Origin: Palleniella muris
Lineage (GTDB): Bacteria; Bacteroidota; Bacteroidia; Bacteroidales; Bacteroidaceae
Length of the DNA stretch: 64,000 nucleotides
Assembly: GCF_004792655.1 (NCBI RefSeq)
Contig: NZ_SRZC01000007.1
Coordinates: forward strand, 78,416 to 142,415
Direction: 5' to 3'
Shown here: positions 7,412 to 33,702 of the stretch, piece after piece
Position numbering within the stretch: position 1 is the stretch's first letter
Layout: each line of letters starts with the position of its first letter
Position numbers and translations under genes: made by a program
Notes under the pieces: model-generated
Seen by the model: only the letters and a program-made list of their open reading frames with translations
Told to the model about the DNA's origin: nothing
Databases searched by the model: none

Positions 7412-8266
7412 ATGAGACTGGATTTAGAAGTACCCAACTTTACCGGTTTTTATCAAGGTATCTGGGAGCAGGGCGAAAATGAATGGACGGAAATCCATGA
7501 AATGAAGTATGGTGAGTATGAAGATTTTGAAAGTCTGAATCTCATTGATGATTGGGGCTTTGGTCCCGATTATAGAGATAAAGTTGCAAAACTATTTGCT
7601 GATGATTATGCTGAGATAATTAAAAATTGTCTTGGTGTTCCGATGGAATATGTTGGTTGCTATGTCAGTTCTCCAAAAGAGTACAATTTCACTACTGACC
7701 GAATTTTCGCAACCTTCGAGGTTCCTGATTACGATGCACTCGTTAAACGCCTGAAAGAATTAGGAAGTTTGCCGGAGTATCGCACTGAACTTGCTGCTCT
7801 AATTAAGAAGTATCATACGAGTTGCAGTGGTTTCATCTCCTTTATGAGCAATGATATTGAAGAATGGTTTGAACTGATGCAAGACCCGTCAAACGATCAT
7901 TACACCAGTTATTTTCTTGGTTATTTGCTCAGCCTGATGGCTCCAGAAGAAATTGAAGGCTTGAATGAGTCTATCTATATGTATGTTGAAGAAAACACTG
8001 ACTATCATTGTGTAGAACCAGAAACGGACGAGGCAAAAGAGGAATGGGAGATTTATCTGAAATATGGTTCGCTCTACACCGATTATGCTACAGCACATCC
8101 TATGCGATATGAAAATCCCGATAAAGGCAAATGGCCTTACTGGATTGTAATTGATTGGGATGATTACAAAGAACAGTTCCTCGATTATGTCGAGAAGCAT
8201 GAAAAAGAACAAAAACGTAAGGCTGCGCTTGCTGCGATGCCTGTAATTCCAGGATTATTTGACTAA
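7412..8266 (+). CDS. acidic hypothetical protein, 284 aa
   Basis: A 284-residue acidic protein with two likely domains: residues 1-120 (beta-rich, EVPNFTGFYQGIW) and 120-284 (helical, with DDWGFG- and YSSYF-like aromatic patches). No family recognised. Its TAA overlaps the ATG of the next gene as TAATG, implying coupled translation. Confidence 0.6.
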   Translation: MRLDLEVPNFTGFYQGIWEQGENEWTEIHEMKYGEYEDFESLNLIDDWGFGPDYRDKVAKLFADDYAEIIKNCLGVPMEYVGCYVSSPKEYNFTTDRIFATFEVPDYDALVKRLKELGSLPEYRTELAALIKKYHTSCSGFISFMSNDIEEWFELMQDPSNDHYTSYFLGYLLSLMAPEEIEGLNESIYMYVEENTDYHCVEPETDEAKEEWEIYLKYGSLYTDYATAHPMRYENPDKGKWPYWIVIDWDDYKEQFLDYVEKHEKEQKRKAALAAMPVIPGLFD

Positions 8267-10575: not shown

Positions 10576-11241
10576 ATGGCAGCAAATCTTACAGAGATTC
10601 AAAAGCTTAGAATGGCTATCGTAGCCAACCTCAACTTCGATGTTGAGAAAGCAAAGAAAGTGTACAATTTCGTAACTGGTGATGAACAGGCTTCGGTTTC
10701 ATCCCAGCAACAGTTCTGGTCAGACAGCGTGTATTACGTCTTGGAGGGTGGACACCTCACATCTACTGACGACCCGAAGTCAATCGCCGACAAGGTAATT
10801 GGCGTGGCTGTCAAAATGGGTGATAAAATCGCGACTGTTGCGCTTCACGACGCAGCTGATGGTGAAGAGGTTGCTCTTACCGCAGATGAAAGAAGTGGCA
10901 CTTCGGAGTTTTATCACTCAGACTTCTTCGATGCAATCACAGACTGGGATGGTGAAGCCAATACCAAAGACTATGGTGAGGCATTGAATCCGAAGATTGA
11001 CCTGAAAGAAGGACAGTATATCCCATCTCTCGCCCAGTTGCATCTAATTCTGCTGAATATAAAGGAAGTCAACAAGGCGCTGGAGGCTGTTGGTGGTTCT
11101 CCGATGAGAAAAGAGTGGTACTGGTCATCCACTGAGCACAGTGCCGGCTACTCGTGGTACGTGGGCTTCTACAGTGGTGGCGGCTACGGCAACAAGTGCA
11201 ACACTGGCGTGGTTCGCCCTGCTGTAGCCCTATCAGTTTAA
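10576..11241 (+). CDS. DGR-type variable protein with C-type lectin-like C terminus
   Basis: The 221-residue protein has an N-terminal region (1-60), a central domain (IGVAVKMGDKIATVALHD; TKDYGEALNP), the segment YIPSLAQLHLILLNIKEVN, and a C-terminal lectin-like block starting KEWYWSSTEHS and ending VVRPAVALSV. This is the usual form of targets of diversity-generating retroelements in Bacteroidota. In the last 40 codons the positions expected to vary are CAC, GGC, TAC, TAC, GGC, TAC, GGC, GGC, TAC, GGC, AAC, TGC, AAC and GGC. All end in C, as expected for AAC template codons changed at adenines. I found no matching template repeat in this window. Confidence 0.8.
   Translation: MAANLTEIQKLRMAIVANLNFDVEKAKKVYNFVTGDEQASVSSQQQFWSDSVYYVLEGGHLTSTDDPKSIADKVIGVAVKMGDKIATVALHDAADGEEVALTADERSGTSEFYHSDFFDAITDWDGEANTKDYGEALNPKIDLKEGQYIPSLAQLHLILLNIKEVNKALEAVGGSPMRKEWYWSSTEHSAGYSWYVGFYSGGGYGNKCNTGVVRPAVALSV
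11116..11238 (+). other. candidate DGR variable repeat
   Basis: This is codons 181-221 of the variable protein. NNC codons dominate at exposed positions, while framework codons (TGG, TCA, TCC, ACT, GAG, GTG) look ordinary. The likely mutagenesis boundary is the conserved 3' end GTTCGCCCTGCTGTAGCC. No second copy of this 3' end was found in the window by eye on either strand. Confidence 0.65.
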
Positions 11242-12080: not shown

Positions 12081-13343
12081 ATGGCAGATATTATATTAGA
12101 AAAATTTTTCGAGATGCCTCGGTGGGAATATGCCATTGACAAAGGCGTTGGCAAGGACATAAGCCGGCGAGACCTTTGTAAATTGACTAAGCCCGAAACG
12201 AGAGCTCGAATGTATCAGGCTATCAAGGATGGCAAATATGAGATCGCACCTCCTCATACAGCCCAGATACCCAAGGACAACGGTGAGTTCAGGACAGTTT
12301 ACATTAACGAGCCGATGGACCGCATACTTCTCAGCATTGCCAACGATCTCCTTTTTGAATTGACCCCAGACATGGTTCATAAGAGCTGTAAGTCTTATCA
12401 GAAAGGAATCGGCTGTGGTAAGGTCGTTCAAGAAGTTTCAAGGATGATATGCGAGACTAAAGGTGATGTGACTGGCTGGAAGTCCGACCTCAGTAAATAT
12501 TTCGATAGTGTGCTTATCGGATTTATCGATAAGGCGTTTGATATGGTTGAAGCCAAATATGGCCATTCCGCTCTTATTGATGTACTGAGGAAGTATTATC
12601 ACAGTGATTATTACTTCGACCCAGATGGCAATTTGTTGCAGCAATATCAATCATTAAAGCAGGGTTGCGCTGTTGCTTCATGGCTGGCAGATGTTCTTTT
12701 GTATCACATCGATTTTAAGTTGAGTCAGCTGGATGGCTATTATGCTCGCTACTCCGATGATATGCTTTTTGTCGGTCCCGAATATGAAAAGGCAATGGCT
12801 ATTTTGACAGACGACCTTGCGTTAATGGATATGAAGCTCAATCCGAAGAAAGTAGAATACTTGACTCATACGAATTGGTTCAAGTTCCTTGGCTTCTCTA
12901 TTAAAGGTGCCGACATTTCATTAAGCGGGTCTCGAATCAAAACTTTCCAGAAGGAAATTGAGCACCGTACAATCAAACAACGAGGAATTACATTGACAAA
13001 GGCTGTCAATTCTGTCAATCGTTATCTTTACAAGGGTAATGGCGAGTTCAGTTGGGCCACACAAGTTCTCCCTATTTGCAATGTCATCAAAGACATTAAC
13101 GAACTGAATAAGTTTGTTATGGATTGTCTGAGGGCTGTGCAAACTGGCAAGAAGAAGGTCGGTGGTCTTGGCTATGTCAAAACAAAGTCTGAAGGTTGCA
13201 TACAACGCGGACAGGGCAGAAATGTCAAAAGCAACCGAAACAAGACGGAGCAAGAAATTCCCGGCTATTTAACCATTGGCTGCATGAGAAACGCTCTTCT
13301 GACGAGCCGTGAAGCTTATGCGACATTGGTTGAGAATCTTTGA
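12081..13343 (+). CDS. reverse transcriptase, unassigned class
   Basis: I chose ATG 12081 (MADIILEKFF, 420 aa) because the longer frame from 12009 would overlap the upstream gene. RT fingers and palm motifs occur in order: RT1 with RTVYINEPMDRILLSIANDLLFE (residues 71-93), RT2 SYQKGIGCGKVV (105-116), catalytic Asp in SDLSKYFDS (D136), RT4 LKQGCAVASWLAD (192-204), YSDD (224-227), RT6 LNPKKVEYL and RT7 FLGF (269-272). All three catalytic aspartates are present, so it should polymerise DNA on RNA. A basic C-terminal domain (300-420, QRGQGRNVKSNRNKTEQ) has no HNH, maturase or known defence domain. The motif spellings are not those I know for retron, DGR or group II RTs. It is followed directly by the eight-unit RNA array. 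Confidence 0.9.
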   Translation: MADIILEKFFEMPRWEYAIDKGVGKDISRRDLCKLTKPETRARMYQAIKDGKYEIAPPHTAQIPKDNGEFRTVYINEPMDRILLSIANDLLFELTPDMVHKSCKSYQKGIGCGKVVQEVSRMICETKGDVTGWKSDLSKYFDSVLIGFIDKAFDMVEAKYGHSALIDVLRKYYHSDYYFDPDGNLLQQYQSLKQGCAVASWLADVLLYHIDFKLSQLDGYYARYSDDMLFVGPEYEKAMAILTDDLALMDMKLNPKKVEYLTHTNWFKFLGFSIKGADISLSGSRIKTFQKEIEHRTIKQRGITLTKAVNSVNRYLYKGNGEFSWATQVLPICNVIKDINELNKFVMDCLRAVQTGKKKVGGLGYVKTKSEGCIQRGQGRNVKSNRNKTEQEIPGYLTIGCMRNALLTSREAYATLVENL

Positions 13344-13383
13344 TAGTGCAATACGCTGGAAGAAGAGCACTTCTTTCAATTTA

Positions 13384-13490
13384 GACGCCATAATGTTGTC
13401 CAGTTCCAGCTCAGACTTGTAGTCGTACCCGACTCCTGCGCCGGAGCTTCCAGCGGACAGAATGGCGTCCCAATATCGAAATGATTACAG
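13384..13490 (+). ncRNA. array unit 1
   Basis: Outer stem GACGCCAT (13384-13391) with ATGGCGTC (13462-13469); inner GTCC/GGAC (13398, 13455), AGCTC/GAGCT (13408, 13444) and AGTCG/CGACT (13421, 13430) closing TACC. Motif ATCGAAATGATTACAG at 13475-13490. Small hairpins GCAC/GTGC and ACCG/CGGT follow in the linker. Confidence 0.75.
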
Positions 13491-13563
13491 AAATGCACCA
13501 TAAGTGCTGACTTTCAGCAACCGAGTGTACGGTTTGAGAGGAATGGCTTCAAAATTCAATTAA

Positions 13564-13657
13564 GATCATCTTTAACTCTTGATTCGTTTCGTCTTGAGTG
13601 TACCACCAAGACTGTCAGAATCAAGACAAGATGATCCTAATATCGACACCATTAAAG
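13564..13657 (+). ncRNA. array unit 2
   Basis: Outer stem GATCATCTT (13564-13572) with AAGATGATC (13628-13636); middle TCTTGATTC (13577) with GAATCAAGA (13618); inner GTCTTG (13591) with CAAGAC (13607). That is 24 paired positions in three tiers. Motif ATCGACACCATTAAAG at 13642-13657. Confidence 0.8.
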
Positions 13658-13724
13658 TATTACACAGTAAAACCTGACTTCTCTTCTGAGTATGCAGAAT
13701 ATGATTGAATAGCGAATACTTCAG

Positions 13725-13817
13725 CGTGATCTCCTTAACACTCGATAAGGTCCGAGTCTGTTATACATCCTGGACCGTTATCGATGAAGCAGATCACGTA
13801 CATTGAAAAGATTACAG
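13725..13817 (+). ncRNA. array unit 3
   Basis: Outer stem CGTGATCT (13725-13732) with AGATCACG (13791-13798); middle TCGATAA (13742) with TTATCGA (13778); inner GGTCC (13749) with GGACC (13772). Motif ATTGAAAAGATTACAG at 13802-13817. Confidence 0.8.
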
Positions 13818-13908
13818 AACCATACAAAAACGCTTGACAATCATAAAACATTTGGGCATCTGCACAAGATAGATTATGAGATATAAAATTTAATTCTGAA
13901 GACTCAAA

Positions 13909-13998
13909 CCAGAATCGACGGGCTTTTGGAGCAGCGACTGCCATCTCCAGCCAGCCCGTCGATTCTGGCGAATCTTCTTCATATTGACGCCAATATAG
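13909..13998 (+). ncRNA. array unit 4
   Basis: The longest perfect stem: 16 bp between 13909-13924 and 13953-13968 (CCAGAATCGACGGGCT and its complement). Inner TGGAG/CTCCA (13927, 13945) and GCAG/CTGC close CGA. The motif ATTGACGCCAATATAG (13983-13998) is 14 nt further on; the other units have 0-5 nt between stem and motif. Confidence 0.8.
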
Positions 13999-14069
13999 TT
14001 ATGTGCAATTATATCTTGGTAATCTCGGCAATACAGCTGGTCCGGTTTAAGAAACTAATGTTCAGCTTT

Positions 14070-14170
14070 GCGGCCAGAATCCACCGCGTGAGCCGGCGCC
14101 AACAGTGTTTCCACTGTTTCGCCGCCGGCGCACTCCGTTCATCTGGCCGCACACATCGAAACGATTGAAG
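14070..14170 (+). ncRNA. array unit 5
   Basis: Outer stem GCGGCCAGA (14070-14078) with TCTGGCCGC (14142-14150); middle GCCGGCG (14092) with CGCCGGC (14123), flanked by GTG/CAC; inner AACAGTG (14101) with CACTGTT (14112). It is GC-rich compared with its linkers. Motif ATCGAAACGATTGAAG at 14155-14170. Confidence 0.8.
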
Positions 14171-14242
14171 TAATGTATCGCAGTTTTGAGAACCAAAATT
14201 CTTTCAGCACAACTTCGGCCAGTCAAGGCAGCACCTTTATAA

Positions 14243-14333
14243 GAGACTGGATTTGAATGAAGGCTATCCATCCAGGTTTGAAACCTGGATTACTCGCCTT
14301 CAGCATCCAGCTCTCTCATCGAAGCAAATATAG
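14243..14333 (+). ncRNA. array unit 6
   Basis: Outer GAG-A-CTGGAT (14243-14252) with ATCCAG-CTC (14305-14313); middle TGAAGGC (14258) with GCCTTCA (14296); inner ATCCAGGTTT (14270) with AAACCTGGAT (14281). Motif ATCGAAGCAAATATAG at 14318-14333, then hairpin GCCAG/CTGGC. Confidence 0.8.
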
Positions 14334-14403
14334 AAATGTGCCAGACTGATGAGACTGGCTATCAATACAGCACAGTATCAATTATGCAAGCGGCTTTAAT
14401 TCA

Positions 14404-14492
14404 GCGCGGCGGGTACACACACGCGTGGTTCATCTCAAATATGAGATGACCTACGCGTGCCAAACCCGCTCTTCGCATCGGCTCTAATATAG
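14404..14492 (+). ncRNA. array unit 7
   Basis: Outer GCGGGT (14409) with ACCCGC (14464), extended by GCG/CGC; middle CACGCGT (14420-14426) with ACGCGTG (14453-14459); inner GGTTCATCTCA (14427) with TGAGATGACC (14442). Motif ATCGGCTCTAATATAG at 14477-14492, then hairpin AATTA/TAATT. Confidence 0.8.
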
Positions 14493-14567
14493 CAATGTGT
14501 CAATTAGCCTGAGCATAATTAAAACAATGTAACGTAACATCGGATGTATAAGGGATTTGGCTTTAAG

Positions 14568-14655
14568 TAACAGGTCACAATCATCCGGGTTCTCTCAGGA
14601 TTATATCCTGACCTCACCCGGATTCAATACCTGTTATGTATCGATTCGATTAAAG
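14568..14655 (+). ncRNA. array unit 8
   Basis: Outer TAACAGGT (14568-14575) with ACCTGTTA (14629-14636); middle ATCCGGGT (14583) with ACCCGGAT (14616); inner TCAGGAT (14595) with ATCCTGA (14605). Motif ATCGATTCGATTAAAG at 14640-14655. The next gene begins 45 nt later. Confidence 0.8.
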
Positions 14656-14700
14656 AACTACGTCACAAATTTTGAATACGTCCTTTTTAATTGACATTCA

Positions 14701-15162
14701 ATGGAAAATATTTGGAATGAAGCGCAAGAAAAAGTCCATAATGGTTCCACCTTCAGAATCAATTTGGAGAAGCGTGACCTTGTAATTGATGGCAAATACA
14801 TCATCAAGGATGGTAAATATGAAGGAAAACTGGGATATGATACTAAATTCCCAGTTAATGCCTTACTCGCTATGGTAGAGGAATACTACTGGGAATATCT
14901 TCATAGTGTTCCGTCTGCCCGTAGTGAAGCAAAGTATAGGCGTTATTTCCGTGCCCTGCCGGAGCATGAACTTTCTGAAGAAGATATGCTATACGGTCAG
15001 CACCGGGATATAACCCAGTTACGTTTGGAACTGTTTATCCTGATAGCAATTATACAGAACACATTGATTTGGGATGAGTTTGCCAAAGGTAAATGGTTTT
15101 GGCAATCAAAGAAGCACCCGTCTCTTGTGTTGCTTAAACAATGGATAGAAATCAATAACTAA
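14701..15162 (+). CDS. hypothetical protein downstream of array, 153 aa
   Basis: A 153-residue soluble protein. It contains RSEAKYRRYFRALPEHELS, then DMLYGQHRDITQLRLELFIL, and ends with KGKWFWQSKKHPSLVLLKQW, a pattern I associate with small phage-like proteins of Bacteroidota. The start at 14701 is the first ATG after the RNA array. No function known. Whether it belongs with the RT and array cannot be told from the sequence alone. Confidence 0.65.
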   Translation: MENIWNEAQEKVHNGSTFRINLEKRDLVIDGKYIIKDGKYEGKLGYDTKFPVNALLAMVEEYYWEYLHSVPSARSEAKYRRYFRALPEHELSEEDMLYGQHRDITQLRLELFILIAIIQNTLIWDEFAKGKWFWQSKKHPSLVLLKQWIEINN

Positions 15163-15176
15163 TAAAATATACAACA

Positions 15177-16274
15177 ATGAAAGAAACAAAAGTAGTATGC
15201 CCTAAATGCGGCGCAAGTATCGCAATTCCTGAACATGAGTCATTCACAGCAGGTATCGCTATCGGTAAGGATAGCGGTCTGGGAACTGTTACGCTCCCAC
15301 TTGAATCAGAAAACAATTCAATTTCTAAAAACAGAACAGCAATGAAAGCATCAAAGAAAATTGAGGCGATGAAAGCCGCCGGTATTGACGTAACAAACCT
15401 TTTCGCAGTAACAAATGCAGAGGGCGTAGAATCTATCGCACGTCTTGAAAACGGAGGTCTGACTATTTTGGCAGACAACGACCCTATCATTATCGCCATC
15501 TTCAAGGGTGGCACTGTGCCTAACCGCCGTCTGTTCCGCAGATGGGTTATGGCGCAGGTATTCCACATGCTGACTCAGAAGGATTGGAAAACCGGTAAGC
15601 CTGTAGGATTTCTTAATGCGCTTCAGGCAAAGGGCTTCTGTTATAGCTGGGAAATGCTAATTGAGGAAATCCGCATACAGGCTAAGTTGGAAATGCTCGA
15701 CCAGGAAAATTTTATCCAGCGCAATCGTTGGTTCAATAAGAATGTAGCCGGTGCAATGGCAGCAGACTATCTCAAGCAGCTTAACGAGCATGTTGAGCAG
15801 AGAAAGAAAAAATGTAAGCGTTGTAAGGGCACTCCTTATATTACGCTCAACGGCAACAACATCTTTGTTGATGATTTGCGCAAGAAAGTGTTCAATCCGC
15901 TGGAAAGATGCGCCCGACTGATTAAAGATGCAAAAAACATGACAGACCTCTACCGTGCTGCCGTCGGATTCTACCAGATTGTGAAAGAGATGTATTCACC
16001 TTACAGTCTCGTGATGAGCCCGGCGTTTAAGGATGCGTACAAGGGTGCTGGTGGCTACTTCACTATGCGTAACCTTATCATGTTCCACGGATGCAAAATG
16101 CTTAGCAGTAAGGGGAATCCGCTGGTAGAGTCGTCATCTCTCCGTGAGCTTGATAAACTTGCTGAAGTCTATAAAAATGGAGAAGGTTGGCGTATGTTTG
16201 GCGCCATGAAAGAGCTGATTGTCAACAATGGCATTGACATCGAAGCCAAAATGAACGAATGGCGAAGCAAATAA
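15177..16274 (+). CDS. zinc-ribbon hypothetical protein, 365 aa
   Basis: The N terminus carries VCPKCGASI, and a second knuckle CKRCKG lies near residue 213. A long helical middle (residues 90-200, RRLFRRWVMAQVFHML) is rich in aromatic and basic residues. It looks like a nucleic-acid-binding phage or plasmid protein of unknown role. It is 14 nt downstream of the 153-aa gene and probably cotranscribed. Confidence 0.65.
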   Translation: MKETKVVCPKCGASIAIPEHESFTAGIAIGKDSGLGTVTLPLESENNSISKNRTAMKASKKIEAMKAAGIDVTNLFAVTNAEGVESIARLENGGLTILADNDPIIIAIFKGGTVPNRRLFRRWVMAQVFHMLTQKDWKTGKPVGFLNALQAKGFCYSWEMLIEEIRIQAKLEMLDQENFIQRNRWFNKNVAGAMAADYLKQLNEHVEQRKKKCKRCKGTPYITLNGNNIFVDDLRKKVFNPLERCARLIKDAKNMTDLYRAAVGFYQIVKEMYSPYSLVMSPAFKDAYKGAGGYFTMRNLIMFHGCKMLSSKGNPLVESSSLRELDKLAEVYKNGEGWRMFGAMKELIVNNGIDIEAKMNEWRSK

Positions 16275-18320: not shown

Positions 18321-18962
18321 ATGATTGACAATTTCGACATAATCAAACCTTTGTTCTACTTCAATGAAGTGAACAATATGTTTTTTCATCTTCAGATACT
18401 GAGGCGTGGTAAGGATCATCCGGAACTACCAGCGGCAAACAAACTCATTCAGTCATGGCTCGTTAGAAGTCGGGAACAACTTGATAACTTGAAGGATGAG
18501 GTTGTATTCCTGTGCGAACATTACAAAGCGCGGGCATATATCAATGTTGCTGGGAAAGATTTTGAGAAGTTAAATACCCTCATACTCAAAAAACTCGCGG
18601 ATAATGTTCATACAGGCAATGTCATCAACCCCTGGCATATTTACAACAGTGCTTGTGGCGAATTAACAAGCCGTCGTAAGAGCTGGATAATTGACATTGA
18701 TACACGAGACCTCGACACCAAATACGAAGTACTGGAAGAATTGGATGGCATCTGGCTGGAAACTCATCCAGAATCGAAAGAGTATTTGGATGAGTGTTGC
18801 CGTGACATCGTGTATCTTTTTGCTGAGATTCCGACAATGAATGGATGCCATCTTATCACTAAACCATTTAATCTTCAGAAGTTCAAAGAAAAGTTTCCGG
18901 AGATTGACGTTCACAAGAATAATCCAACGGTGCTTTATGTACCGAAAAGTATAACACAATGA
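18321..18962 (+). CDS. possible AEP-type primase, 213 aa
   Basis: The C-terminal half has WIIDIDTRD (residues about 120-128), then GCHLITKPF (about 175) and IDVHKNNPTVLYVP (about 195). The order hhhDhD, xxH and hD is that of archaeo-eukaryotic primase catalytic motifs. The N-terminal half (LQILRRGKDHPELPAANK) is helical. On this reading it would make primers for element replication. The assignment rests on short motifs only. It overlaps the rtcB-like pseudogene by 4 nt. Confidence 0.45.
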   Translation: MIDNFDIIKPLFYFNEVNNMFFHLQILRRGKDHPELPAANKLIQSWLVRSREQLDNLKDEVVFLCEHYKARAYINVAGKDFEKLNTLILKKLADNVHTGNVINPWHIYNSACGELTSRRKSWIIDIDTRDLDTKYEVLEELDGIWLETHPESKEYLDECCRDIVYLFAEIPTMNGCHLITKPFNLQKFKEKFPEIDVHKNNPTVLYVPKSITQ

Positions 18963-20000
18963 AGATATTTCAAAATTTAATAGGCCAAGACGTGAAGATC
19001 TTCGGAGATATTCTGGAAGATGAGGCTTTGGCTCAAATACAGCGATTGGCCGATTTCAAGCCATATCAGGATTCCCATATCCGAATTATGCCGGATGTTC
19101 ATGCTGGGAAGGGATGTACTATTGGTACCACAATGTATATAACCGATGCTGTGACCCCTAATCTGGTAGGCGTTGACATAGGGTGCGGTATGTTTGTCGT
19201 TCCGCTGGGTCAGGTTGATATAGACCTCGCTAAGTTTGATGAAGTTGTACATCAGTATATCCCATCCGGCCATAACATTCATAATACTCCGATTCCTCGG
19301 TGTTCGTGTATGTCAGTATTATCAAAAGATGACCGAATCGTTATGTAGTCGTGGTTTTGCCGATAGAAACGAAATTATTCAGCATTTGAAGGCTGAAGGC
19401 CGTGCTAATGAAATTCAAACTGAATTGTCAAAGCTAAAGCCTATTTCGGTGCCTGACGGACTTGCATACATAACAGGAGAAGTCCAAGAACACTATTTCC
19501 ATGATATGCAGATTGTCCAAATGTACGCGCAAATGAACCGTGAAACAATGGCATATATCATACTTGCGAAGCTCGGATTAAAGATAAGTAGGGCTATTCA
19601 GCCATTTCATACTGTTCACAATTACATCGACTTTTCCACTTCAGGGATTATCCTCCGTAAAGGCGCAGTTCGGGCAAATCAAGATGAACACCTTATCATT
19701 CCAATGAATATGCGAGATGGTTCACTGATTTGTGTTGGTAAGGGGAATCCGGACTGGAACTATTCTGCTCCACATGGAGCCGGGAGGTTGATGTCTCGCA
19801 AGAAGGCAAAGGAAACGCTCTCGGTAGAACAATTTGCCGAAGAGATGAATCAAGTGTACTCTTCTTCGGTGTGCGAAGCAACTCTTGACGAGGCACCGAT
19901 GGCTTACAAGCCTATGAAGGCTATCATTGATGCCATTCAGGACACCGTTGAGGTTAAGAAAATCATTCGTCCTATCTATAATTTCAAGGCAAAGGAGTAA
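18959..20000 (+). pseudogene. rtcB: RtcB RNA ligase, broken by internal deletion and frameshift
   Basis: The first frame (18959-19348) encodes the RtcB N terminus, with MPDVHAGKGCTIG and GVDIGCGM (metal-binding Asp73 and Cys76), up to IPSGHNIHNTP. The rest of the ligase continues in another frame from about 19350 to 20000, including HNYIDF and DWNYSAPHGAGR, where GMP is bound. Between them about 80-90 residues normally containing GGGNHF and its metal-binding histidines are missing, and the frame changes. The product cannot be an active ligase as read. RtcB normally joins 2',3'-cyclic phosphate RNA ends to 5'-OH ends. Confidence 0.8.
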
Positions 20001-32097: not shown

Positions 32098-33375
32098 TTA
32101 TGTCGCAGCTTTCATAAACGCCATCTGGAGTCTCTGCTGATTCGTGACGCTATCCCCGTTATAATAATGCTCTTGAATCATCTCTATGCTTGTGCCTGCC
32201 GCCATTGCAATATAGGAAATGGGCAAGCCGCTATCCAAGGCCACAGTGATTGCCGTATGGCGAAACACATAGGCATACAGGTCGTAGTCCATACCCAGCT
32301 CTTTTCCGACTGATTTAAGCCAGATATTGAGCTTTTCCCGAAACTTTTTGAATGTATAGTCTTTGGTCTGATATGTCTTTTCTTTTTCATCGTCCATGAT
32401 TGGAAAGACATACCCATCTGTAGTTGTTCCTCTGTATTTGGAAATGATATTCCCCATTACCGGAGACACCGGAACTTCAACCAGTTGGTGTGTTTTCTTG
32501 CGTCTGGTTCTGATTGTGTTATTGCGAGTAAGTTCCGAGTATTTCAGTTTAATGACATCACATGGAGCGAAAAAGGAGTGGAACATGAATATGCAGAAAT
32601 CGCGATACAGTTCAACTTCTTTACGGTTTTTGTATTGCGGAGTGAGTTTGGACAAATCCGCATTGATGAATCGTCTCAGTTGCTCTTGCGTTAATATATC
32701 GGGAGTTTTATTGTCAGCGCAGTTTCTTTTGGGATTATATTCCGCGAACTTGAAGTCCCCTATTTGGGCCAATGAGAACGGGACATCCTTATCCTTGCTG
32801 GCCTTGCCCAGTAAGTTCCTGAAAGATTTTGATGTTCCCTTGTACCCATCATATTTTGCGAATGTGTGGGCCAGTTGAACACAAGCCTTATAATCGAGCG
32901 ACTGGAAAGTCAAGGATGAGAAACCCCTGATGATTTTGCGGCACTTGCTCAGCAGTTTGGAATAGGTCTCGAAATTGCAGCCCAACTTTGCCTTTTCCCG
33001 CAAGATGACCTCTTCCAGATATTTCTCAACAAAGTTGAAATCGGATGCCGGTACTGCATTTCCCACCGGTCTTTCAATGATTTCACATTTGACTTGCTTG
33101 ATAGGCTGGAAGTATGACGCTACCTGCCTCGCCGTGAGTTCAGGATGCTCAAGCAGCAACTTTGTATAGGGGTTCTTGAACTCCTCCAGAATCTTGTTGT
33201 TCTCCGAGTATGAAACGGCGTTGGCTGAGAAACGCTCTTTGTCCGCGTTCCAATGCCTCGCTAAATTGGGACTGCCGGTCAAAAGGTGTTTGACCGATTT
33301 GTAGTATCTTTCTTTCCCCTCACTTATTCTCAGGACGAGGGAACTATCCTTTATTATGAATTTTAGCTTCACCAT
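32098..33375 (-). CDS. tyrosine recombinase (integrase), 425 aa
   Basis: The start at 33375 (MVKLKFIIKDSS) is preferred to 33474, whose extra 33 residues are not typical. N-terminal arm-binding region (1-100), core-binding helices (105-200) and catalytic domain (225-425). YVFRHTAIT has the second catalytic Arg and His (R372, H373); RRKKT supplies the Lys; EHYYN carries the nucleophilic Tyr (404 or 405). The usual first Arg is not seen (FHSFFAPCDVIKLK where GxR is expected). It would integrate or excise the element. It lies next to tRNA-Phe, its probable target. Confidence 0.85.
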   Translation of the reverse strand: MVKLKFIIKDSSLVLRISEGKERYYKSVKHLLTGSPNLARHWNADKERFSANAVSYSENNKILEEFKNPYTKLLLEHPELTARQVASYFQPIKQVKCEIIERPVGNAVPASDFNFVEKYLEEVILREKAKLGCNFETYSKLLSKCRKIIRGFSSLTFQSLDYKACVQLAHTFAKYDGYKGTSKSFRNLLGKASKDKDVPFSLAQIGDFKFAEYNPKRNCADNKTPDILTQEQLRRFINADLSKLTPQYKNRKEVELYRDFCIFMFHSFFAPCDVIKLKYSELTRNNTIRTRRKKTHQLVEVPVSPVMGNIISKYRGTTTDGYVFPIMDDEKEKTYQTKDYTFKKFREKLNIWLKSVGKELGMDYDLYAYVFRHTAITVALDSGLPISYIAMAAGTSIEMIQEHYYNGDSVTNQQRLQMAFMKAAT

Positions 33376-33622: not shown

Positions 33623-33629
33623 TTTCGAG

Positions 33630-33702
33630 TGGTGCCAACGGGATTCGAACCAGTGACACACGGATTTTCAGTCCGATGCTCTACCAACTGAGCTATGGCA
33701 CC
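33630..33702 (-). tRNA. tRNA-Phe (GAA), probable attachment site
   Basis: On the minus strand: acceptor GGTGCCA/TGGCACC, anticodon loop ACTGAAAAT (GAA), T arm CTGG-TTCGAATC-CCG-like, discriminator A, no encoded CCA. Its 3' end faces the integrase gene 255 nt away, which is the classic arrangement of an attachment site at a tRNA 3' end. The other att copy would lie left of the window. Confidence 0.9.

Follow-up and report, generated by a model that had tools for sequence, protein, structure and literature searches.

Why should the gene of a reverse transcriptase (RT) be followed by more than a kilobase of DNA in which hairpin follows hairpin and no gene is apparent? The question is raised by a prophage locus of Palleniella muris, which was studied in a window of 64,000 nucleotides (bases 78416-142415 of contig NZ_SRZC01000007.1, hereafter C57, of a 3.58-Mb genome). 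The full-length RT (residues 1-420) matches the PADLOC model RT_UG27 (PDLC03765, E 4.3e-230). A gap of 1.36 kb separates it from the gene of RTas346, itself a catalogued RT-associated protein, and the three open reading frames (ORFs) listed in it, ahead of the one at 14701, have 69-80 aa. Here we describe the array of eight predicted structured RNA units that fills this gap, and weigh what the units may do for the enzyme.

The first-pass annotation, made from the letters alone, had reported an RT with its catalytic motifs followed on the same strand by eight regularly spaced hairpins in a gene-less 1.36 kb. Both observations stand. D136 and D142, which we take to be motif A, and the YSDD box (Y224-D227) are invariant among 17 aligned sequences, and Pfam RVT_1 matches the RT at 1.7e-16. 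The eight hairpins have lengths of 71-86 nt and z-scores of -3.9 to -7.8, with none of 200 dinucleotide shuffles folding equally well for any of them, and the ATC or ATT marks that follow them are spaced 159-181 nt. The array begins with unit 1 directly at the stop codon of the RT and stops 37 nt short of RTas346; among 45 loci the median distance from array end to RTas346 match is 48 nt. The orthologous gap DNA of Bacteroides phage BS-TP1, 76% identical over 99%, is without annotated feature. An Rfam scan of the array gave no family at the gathering threshold and three weak matches, the best of 23.7 bits (gathering 60). Coordinates are collected in Table 1.

Table 1. Position, strand and supporting evidence of the features of the window.
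Feature	Position	Strand	Evidence
Array of eight structured units occupying the RT-RTas346 gap	13344..14663	+	folding, collinear alignment with four relatives
Unit 1: complementary bases 13346-13350 (weak stem, 2 bp), hairpin 13384-13469, ATC 13475, pairing strand 13494-13498	13345..13498	+	z -3.9
Unit 2: small stem-loop 13519-13534, hairpin 13559-13641, ATC 13642, pairing strand 13661-13665	13519..13665	+	z -6.5
Unit 3: small stem-loop 13684-13699, hairpin 13724-13799, ATT 13802, pairing strand 13821-13825	13684..13825	+	z -5.5
Unit 4: small stem-loop 13858-13870, hairpin 13898-13977, ATT 13983, pairing strand 14002-14006	13858..14006	+	z -7.8
Unit 5: small stem-loop 14025-14040, hairpin 14069-14151, ATC 14155, pairing strand 14174-14178	14025..14178	+	z -6.6
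Unit 6: complementary bases 14207-14211 (no clear stem), hairpin 14242-14316, ATC 14318, pairing strand 14337-14341	14207..14341	+	z -6.7
Unit 7: small stem-loop 14365-14378, hairpin 14404-14476, ATC 14477, pairing strand 14496-14500 (one G.U)	14365..14500	+	z -7.8
Unit 8: small stem-loop 14527-14540, hairpin 14567-14637, ATC 14640, pairing strand 14659-14663	14527..14663	+	z -7.1
Reverse transcriptase (RT), 420 aa, PADLOC RT_UG27	12081..13343	+	PADLOC model, Pfam RVT_1, invariant residues
RT-associated protein, 153 aa, PADLOC RTas346	14701..15162	+	PDLC03808, E 4e-60
RT-associated protein p365, 365 aa, PADLOC RTas337	15177..16274	+	PDLC03807, E 4e-130; present in most relatives
Prophage part of window, collinear with Bacteroides phage BS-TP1	1..33375	.	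tblastn of window ORFs
Integrase, prophage end, near tRNA-Phe	32098-33375		tblastn
tRNA-Phe	33629-33702		tRNA search

The units share one plan, in the order small stem-loop, variable long hairpin, ATC-N7/8-TANAG-N3 and pairing strand. By means of a position matrix trained on the linkers, an ungapped motif was defined 3' of each hairpin, which reads ATC-N7-TANAG-NNA and is followed by five alternating pyrimidine/purine bases; this alternating pentamer is present in 152 of 161 units from arrays of four or more. The window version is one base longer (N8), with ATT in two of its eight units and TGAAG in one, and the window units mostly score low because of this extra base. Units scoring under 12 or 13 were omitted from the strand, mismatch and loop-pairing counts given below; the window units were added by hand to the mismatch and loop-pairing sets and are absent from the set of 250 folded regions. 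Alignment of the window array with four relatives shows conserved linkers and diverging stems, and over seven related arrays the hairpins are less conserved than the linkers (0.753 vs 0.842). The unlike stems in a common frame that had been noted at first reading are a true feature of the array, and the frame goes beyond even spacing: the units share a stem-loop/ATC/TANAG plan, and complementary pentamers are present in every window unit.

These pentamers provide strong evidence on structure. In all eight window units five bases 5' of the hairpin are complementary to five bases at TNNAG+3 downstream of it (with one G.U, in unit 7), and in six of the eight a stem of 4-5 bp presents the former in its loop. 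Pairing between loop and strand is found in 131 of 254 units, compared with 26.3 expected (sd 4.2, maximum 40, 500 permutations). This permutation count is the unselected test, since alignment A2 (53 rows, from 63 of 79 linkers picked for small stem-loop and partner) has 100% pairing there by construction. The paired units show 28 different loop pairings; 116 units pair perfectly, 15 with one G.U and 5 with one A.C, as would be expected if the RT strand is the one made as RNA. The loop pairing is thus strong covariation evidence for a predicted pseudoknot in RNA read from the RT strand. In the small stem both partners differ in 118 of 205 cells, the rows having been chosen for the presence of the stem. 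For the long stems, five ortholog groups show Watson-Crick changes on both sides in 122 of 1084 pairs with 96% of cells paired, as against 48 of 4263 pairs and 36% for slid-partner controls, the structure having been predicted on the same alignments. The 250 hairpin regions of relatives with a motif score of 13 or more, window units excluded, have a mean z of -5.4, and 87% lie below -3. An orthogonal pairing code, with each unit of an array keeping its own pentamer, was rejected, as units of one array share the pentamer in 37 of 369 pairs vs 37.3 expected.

Is this array a property of the UG27 RT or of one prophage? Protein searches collected 37 loci on viral contigs and 35 in genomes titled with taxa that we take to belong to the order Bacteroidales, plus phage BS-TP1; the RT homologue search gave 4,568 matches, the best 120 of the 4,568 being listed. 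Before units were counted 18 locus names were omitted, 16 judged near-identical or cut together with L001 and L002 from the own genome, and eight loci with RT or gap cut or reordered (L020, L026, L038, L057, L069, L070, L073, L074) were left out of the main count. This comprises 66 loci, window included, with an RT and a downstream RTas337, and units lie between the two in 64: by motif matches there are at least two in 53, one in 11 and none in 2. The window itself counts as one match, because most of its motifs fall under the cut-off. Near-identical loci were kept here; a repeat that drops them leaves 49 of 51 with units (at least two in 39, one in 10, none in 2). That the array goes with the RT, a point which the first-pass annotation asked to have checked in RT homologues, is thus supported. 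As for the two gaps without match, L031 has a predicted fold with about four long hairpins and L058 has its units 3' of RTas337. The most distant RT (51%), that of L069, has a 0.7-kb gap without motif match.

Orientation is equally consistent. Over 97 kb of gaps the motif matches 276 times on the RT strand and never on the opposite one (200 and 0 without near-identical loci), compared with 4 and 8 matches in 306 kb upstream of the RTs. From one to eight units are detected per gap, L034 being a single-unit gap. At least three matches occur inside 1.6 kb 3' of RTas337 in 8 of the 66 loci; sequence of 1.5 kb or more is available at that place in 45 of the 66. L033 (after position 7770), L059 and L068 carry a further array, with six or seven units, 3' of RTas337, so that ten or more units are possible in one locus. 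In L020 the genes of RTas346 and RTas337 precede the RT, yet the units are still 3' of the RT.

The association was also approached from the array side. A DNA-only pattern scan of 2.9 million viral contigs returned 24 stretches, 21 of which hold a regularly spaced array, and all 21 carry genes of the RT-RTas346-RTas337 system. The RT lies within the fetched stretch in 19; the other two stretches, L125 and L142, contain RTas346 and RTas337 and begin so close before the first unit that the RT would fall outside, and L142 belongs to the contig of L016, which carries an RT. Twelve of the 21 arrays are on contigs new to the analysis, several near-identical among themselves, and the remaining three stretches have neither array nor system genes. 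Two pattern scans with wrong spacing gave four loci, none with an array or an RT, RTas346 or RTas337 match. A linker covariance model, run with strict filters on 393 genomes of the order, found four or five units in each of three genomes, which are G025, G356 and that of the window; G025 is not independent, as it appears to be the genome of L045, which supplied a row of the model. In one further genome the model gave a lone borderline match (E 0.01), which falls within an ORF of 356 aa. An RT search of these genomes at 1e-20 found the same three plus one distant RT, of UG26, and in phage BS-TP1 the model matched the array alone. An array detached from the RT system, which had been named in advance as evidence to the contrary, was accordingly encountered neither among the 21 arrays of viral contigs nor, apart from that borderline match, in the 393 genomes.

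How much of this is new? The first-pass annotation spoke of a candidate new RT system, which holds, as far as found, for the RNA and fails for the proteins. Since the RT is RT_UG27 and both genes 3' of it are PADLOC RT-associated families, the models of which both carry the label DRT, the system is by sequence match an entry already present in the catalogue of defence RTs, and uncharacterised as far as found. All three proteins match, and the catalogue entries are protein models; the RNA array is, as far as found, not catalogued. The UG groups were reportedly named in a survey by Mestre and colleagues in 2022. Among the open-licence papers listed, judged from titles and abstract openings, we found no description of a UG27 RNA array, no work on UG27 itself, and nothing on non-coding RNA (ncRNA) arrays with defence RTs or tandem structured RNAs with phage RTs that describes it. 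The second-best PADLOC model for the RT is RT_UG26 (2.6e-32), and the nearest named models after it are UG17/DRT10 (6.2e-21) and DRT9 (8.7e-21); these matches, like that to DRT2 (5.9e-12), are distant, and the RT does not belong to the DRT2, DRT9 or DRT10 families. In six loci (L026, L027, L028, L039, L058, L064) a single ORF of 529-546 aa joins RTas346 to the RT, with both domains within one protein in the two fusions checked, L028 and L064. Neither RTas346 nor RTas337 has a fold match in PDB at E 0.001. As the RTas346 structure model is nevertheless confident (pLDDT 92.5), its modelled fold may be new.

The known systems nearest in layout suggest what the units may be for. DRT2 (PMC12039810), DRT9 and DRT10 (PMC12632851) are templated defence RTs with one ncRNA each. 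The template of DRT2 is the least conserved part of its ncRNA and has a hairpin on its 5' side and a pseudoknot on its 3' side; the primer is GATAT (PMC12039810), which gives ATATC as primer-binding site. In DRT10 and DRT9 the ncRNA has stem-loops with the template next to a stable stem, that of DRT10 being a single 137-nt ncRNA upstream of a SLATT gene with an A-B-A' template (PMC12632851). The earlier statement that known RT systems have one structured RNA or repeat pair, or none that could be matched to this layout, is to be supplemented: some defence RTs do carry ncRNAs, singly in these three. UG27 likewise has a structured RNA, predicted by covariation, beside its RT, here in tandem and downstream. 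It resembles DRT2 in combining an RT with an adjacent (here predicted) pseudoknotted ncRNA that has a variable middle between 5' hairpin and 3' pseudoknot, and in the likeness of the ATATC site to the ATC or ATT after each hairpin. It differs from DRT2 in having an array instead of one ncRNA, in its distant RT and in the lack of an open-frame signal in the units, and the passages cited for DRT2 do not describe its template as one long near-perfect hairpin. It departs from DRT10 in that several units follow the RT, that no sign of an A-B-A' template was found in them, and that the partner proteins are RTas346 and RTas337, not SLATT.

On these grounds we give a little less than an even chance to the reading that the UG27 RT binds each predicted pseudoknotted unit by means of the conserved frame, and that the long hairpin is the part which it copies into hairpin-forming DNA. 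The RT, RTas346 and RTas337 genes and the array would then be one operon, and the RT-RTas346 pair would recognise the conserved parts of the unit. The long hairpin, placed as the template is in DRT2, would serve as template, a role supported by its lower conservation, as in the DRT2 template; copying would start near the conserved ATC, which stands after the hairpin in almost every unit selected by the motif. The hairpin DNA products may, together with RTas337, act in phage-versus-phage (superinfection) defence, for which the two grounds are the PADLOC class and the prophage setting. That the array is moreover a polycistronic string of unlike template RNAs, separately loaded and yielding a set of different hairpin DNAs, is possible though rather doubtful.

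Several results weigh against templating. By crude tests, the units show neither the A-B-A' repeat of DRT10 nor direct repeats on the two sides of the hairpin, and pairing of the hairpin flanks gave no signal. By a simple test, open frames on the complementary DNA (cDNA) strand, the expectation from DRT2, are not in excess (137 of 250 vs 146.5), those on the RT strand being mildly so (189 vs 169.6, sd 6.5). The ATC belongs to the motif used for finding units, and two of eight window units have ATT. The G.U fraction in long hairpins is 4.7% for the RT strand vs 3.8%, and the complement folds better in 169 of 250 units, the RT strand in 79, an effect that is gone for isolated mismatches; de-duplicated, these show no strand preference in the long stem (G.T 40, A.C 30). 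Selection on the cDNA had been considered on the basis of these 169 vs 79 folds and of A.C 288 vs G.T 135 in 238 hairpins, and was dropped because isolated, de-duplicated mismatches removed the effect. As the template signatures of DRT10 and DRT2 were not found and there is no clear strand preference, the hairpin may be a structural arm and not a template.

An arm of this kind is central to the alternative that survives best, which we regard as unlikely but by no means negligible: the units would be RT-binding cofactors, each holding one RT with RTas346, and the array would gather on one RNA several RTs, which would make untemplated or protein-primed DNA, the hairpin acting as arm or ruler. 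This would agree with stem sequences that shift while pairing stays, with the similar hairpin lengths in the window, with the mismatches that favour neither strand and with the templating signatures sought in vain. It agrees less well with the nearest named models past UG26, UG17/DRT10 and DRT9, whose ncRNAs are templates (PMC12632851), and the single-unit gap of L034 indicates that not every locus needs multivalency.

Long near-perfect double strands are typical substrates of RNase III. The long duplexes of the array would fit such a role, and its place between RT and RTas346 on the RT strand is where an operon regulatory or processing region might be expected, with hairpins as RNase III sites or attenuators that set RT, RTas346 and RTas337 levels. 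We judge this improbable, because up to eight elaborate units per gap seem excessive for regulation, eight loci have at least three units also 3' of RTas337, and the units of L020 follow the RT although both associated genes lie upstream.

A tandem retron, in which the small stem-loop is msr, the long hairpin msd and each unit gives a branched RNA-DNA, is highly improbable: a small stem-loop with a long variable hairpin does resemble the msr-msd layout, but the 3' pairing strand and the position after the RT are to our knowledge not retron features, the unit order and pseudoknot differ, and so does the RT family, the best PADLOC retron model reaching 3.1e-9 vs 4.3e-230 for RT_UG27 and NCBIfam retron St85 35 bits vs a cut-off of 235, which places the enzyme outside the retron RT clade. 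Equally hard to credit is an array of RNA or DNA decoys or guides directed at sequences of the host or of rival phages, to which the unlike stems in a common frame might point, since the array has no significant match in the rest of its own genome, nor in 50,697 phage records except the orthologous array of BS-TP1, and units are collinear, not swapped, between related phages. The suggestion of the first-pass annotation that the units are a stored set of sequences is not supported, for the same reasons: phages whose RTs are 83-95% identical have all eight in collinear order and their stems change in a compensatory manner, so the array is no fast-changing memory.

Other classes of RT were considered. 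The RT is not that of a group II intron (TIGR04416 83.9 bits vs a cut-off of 300), and tRNA is the one Rfam family that attains its gathering score within the window. As to a CRISPR link, the five neighbouring ORFs scanned have no Cas match and the units are not identical repeats, no dedicated CRISPR search having been made. The UG27 RT was also rejected as the enzyme of a diversity-generating retroelement (DGR), because the template repeat of the prophage's own DGR is about 53 kb off (C57:36769-36880), none being found within the window, by another RT-like ORF with a weak RVT_1 match (22.1 bits, below cut-off), and because in BS-TP1 a four-helix-bundle gene goes with a separate RT. The distal target of that DGR is the C-terminus of a DUF1566/Lcl_C-like protein encoded a few genes upstream of the UG27 RT (10576-11241), where all 17 mismatches to the template repeat fall on template adenines, and a second variable copy lies at C57:37590-37711.

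Two observations lie further afield. Of the 26 places returned when the phylum was searched for UG26, the nearest sister family, 18 are in ORFs >700 aa and likely represent group II introns, and this search was set aside; by eye, one UG26 RT appears to have a single structured RNA upstream of it and no array (L116:1200-1360), with closing stem GACAACTC/GAGTTGTC plus a T run. Within the prophage, an RtcB-like RNA ligase gene (18959-20000) is split into overlapping ORFs in different frames (18959-19348 and 19239-20000), where BS-TP1 has a single ORF.

The array points to a missing RNA part of the catalogued RT_UG27/RTas346/RTas337 system, and the proteins tested alone, without it, would likely fail in the laboratory. 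The family of one to eight units in Bacteroidales phages and genomes offers a natural series for studying how an RT chooses its template and what purpose several templates serve. If the multi-template reading is true, UG27 would be a reverse transcription system of an undescribed kind.

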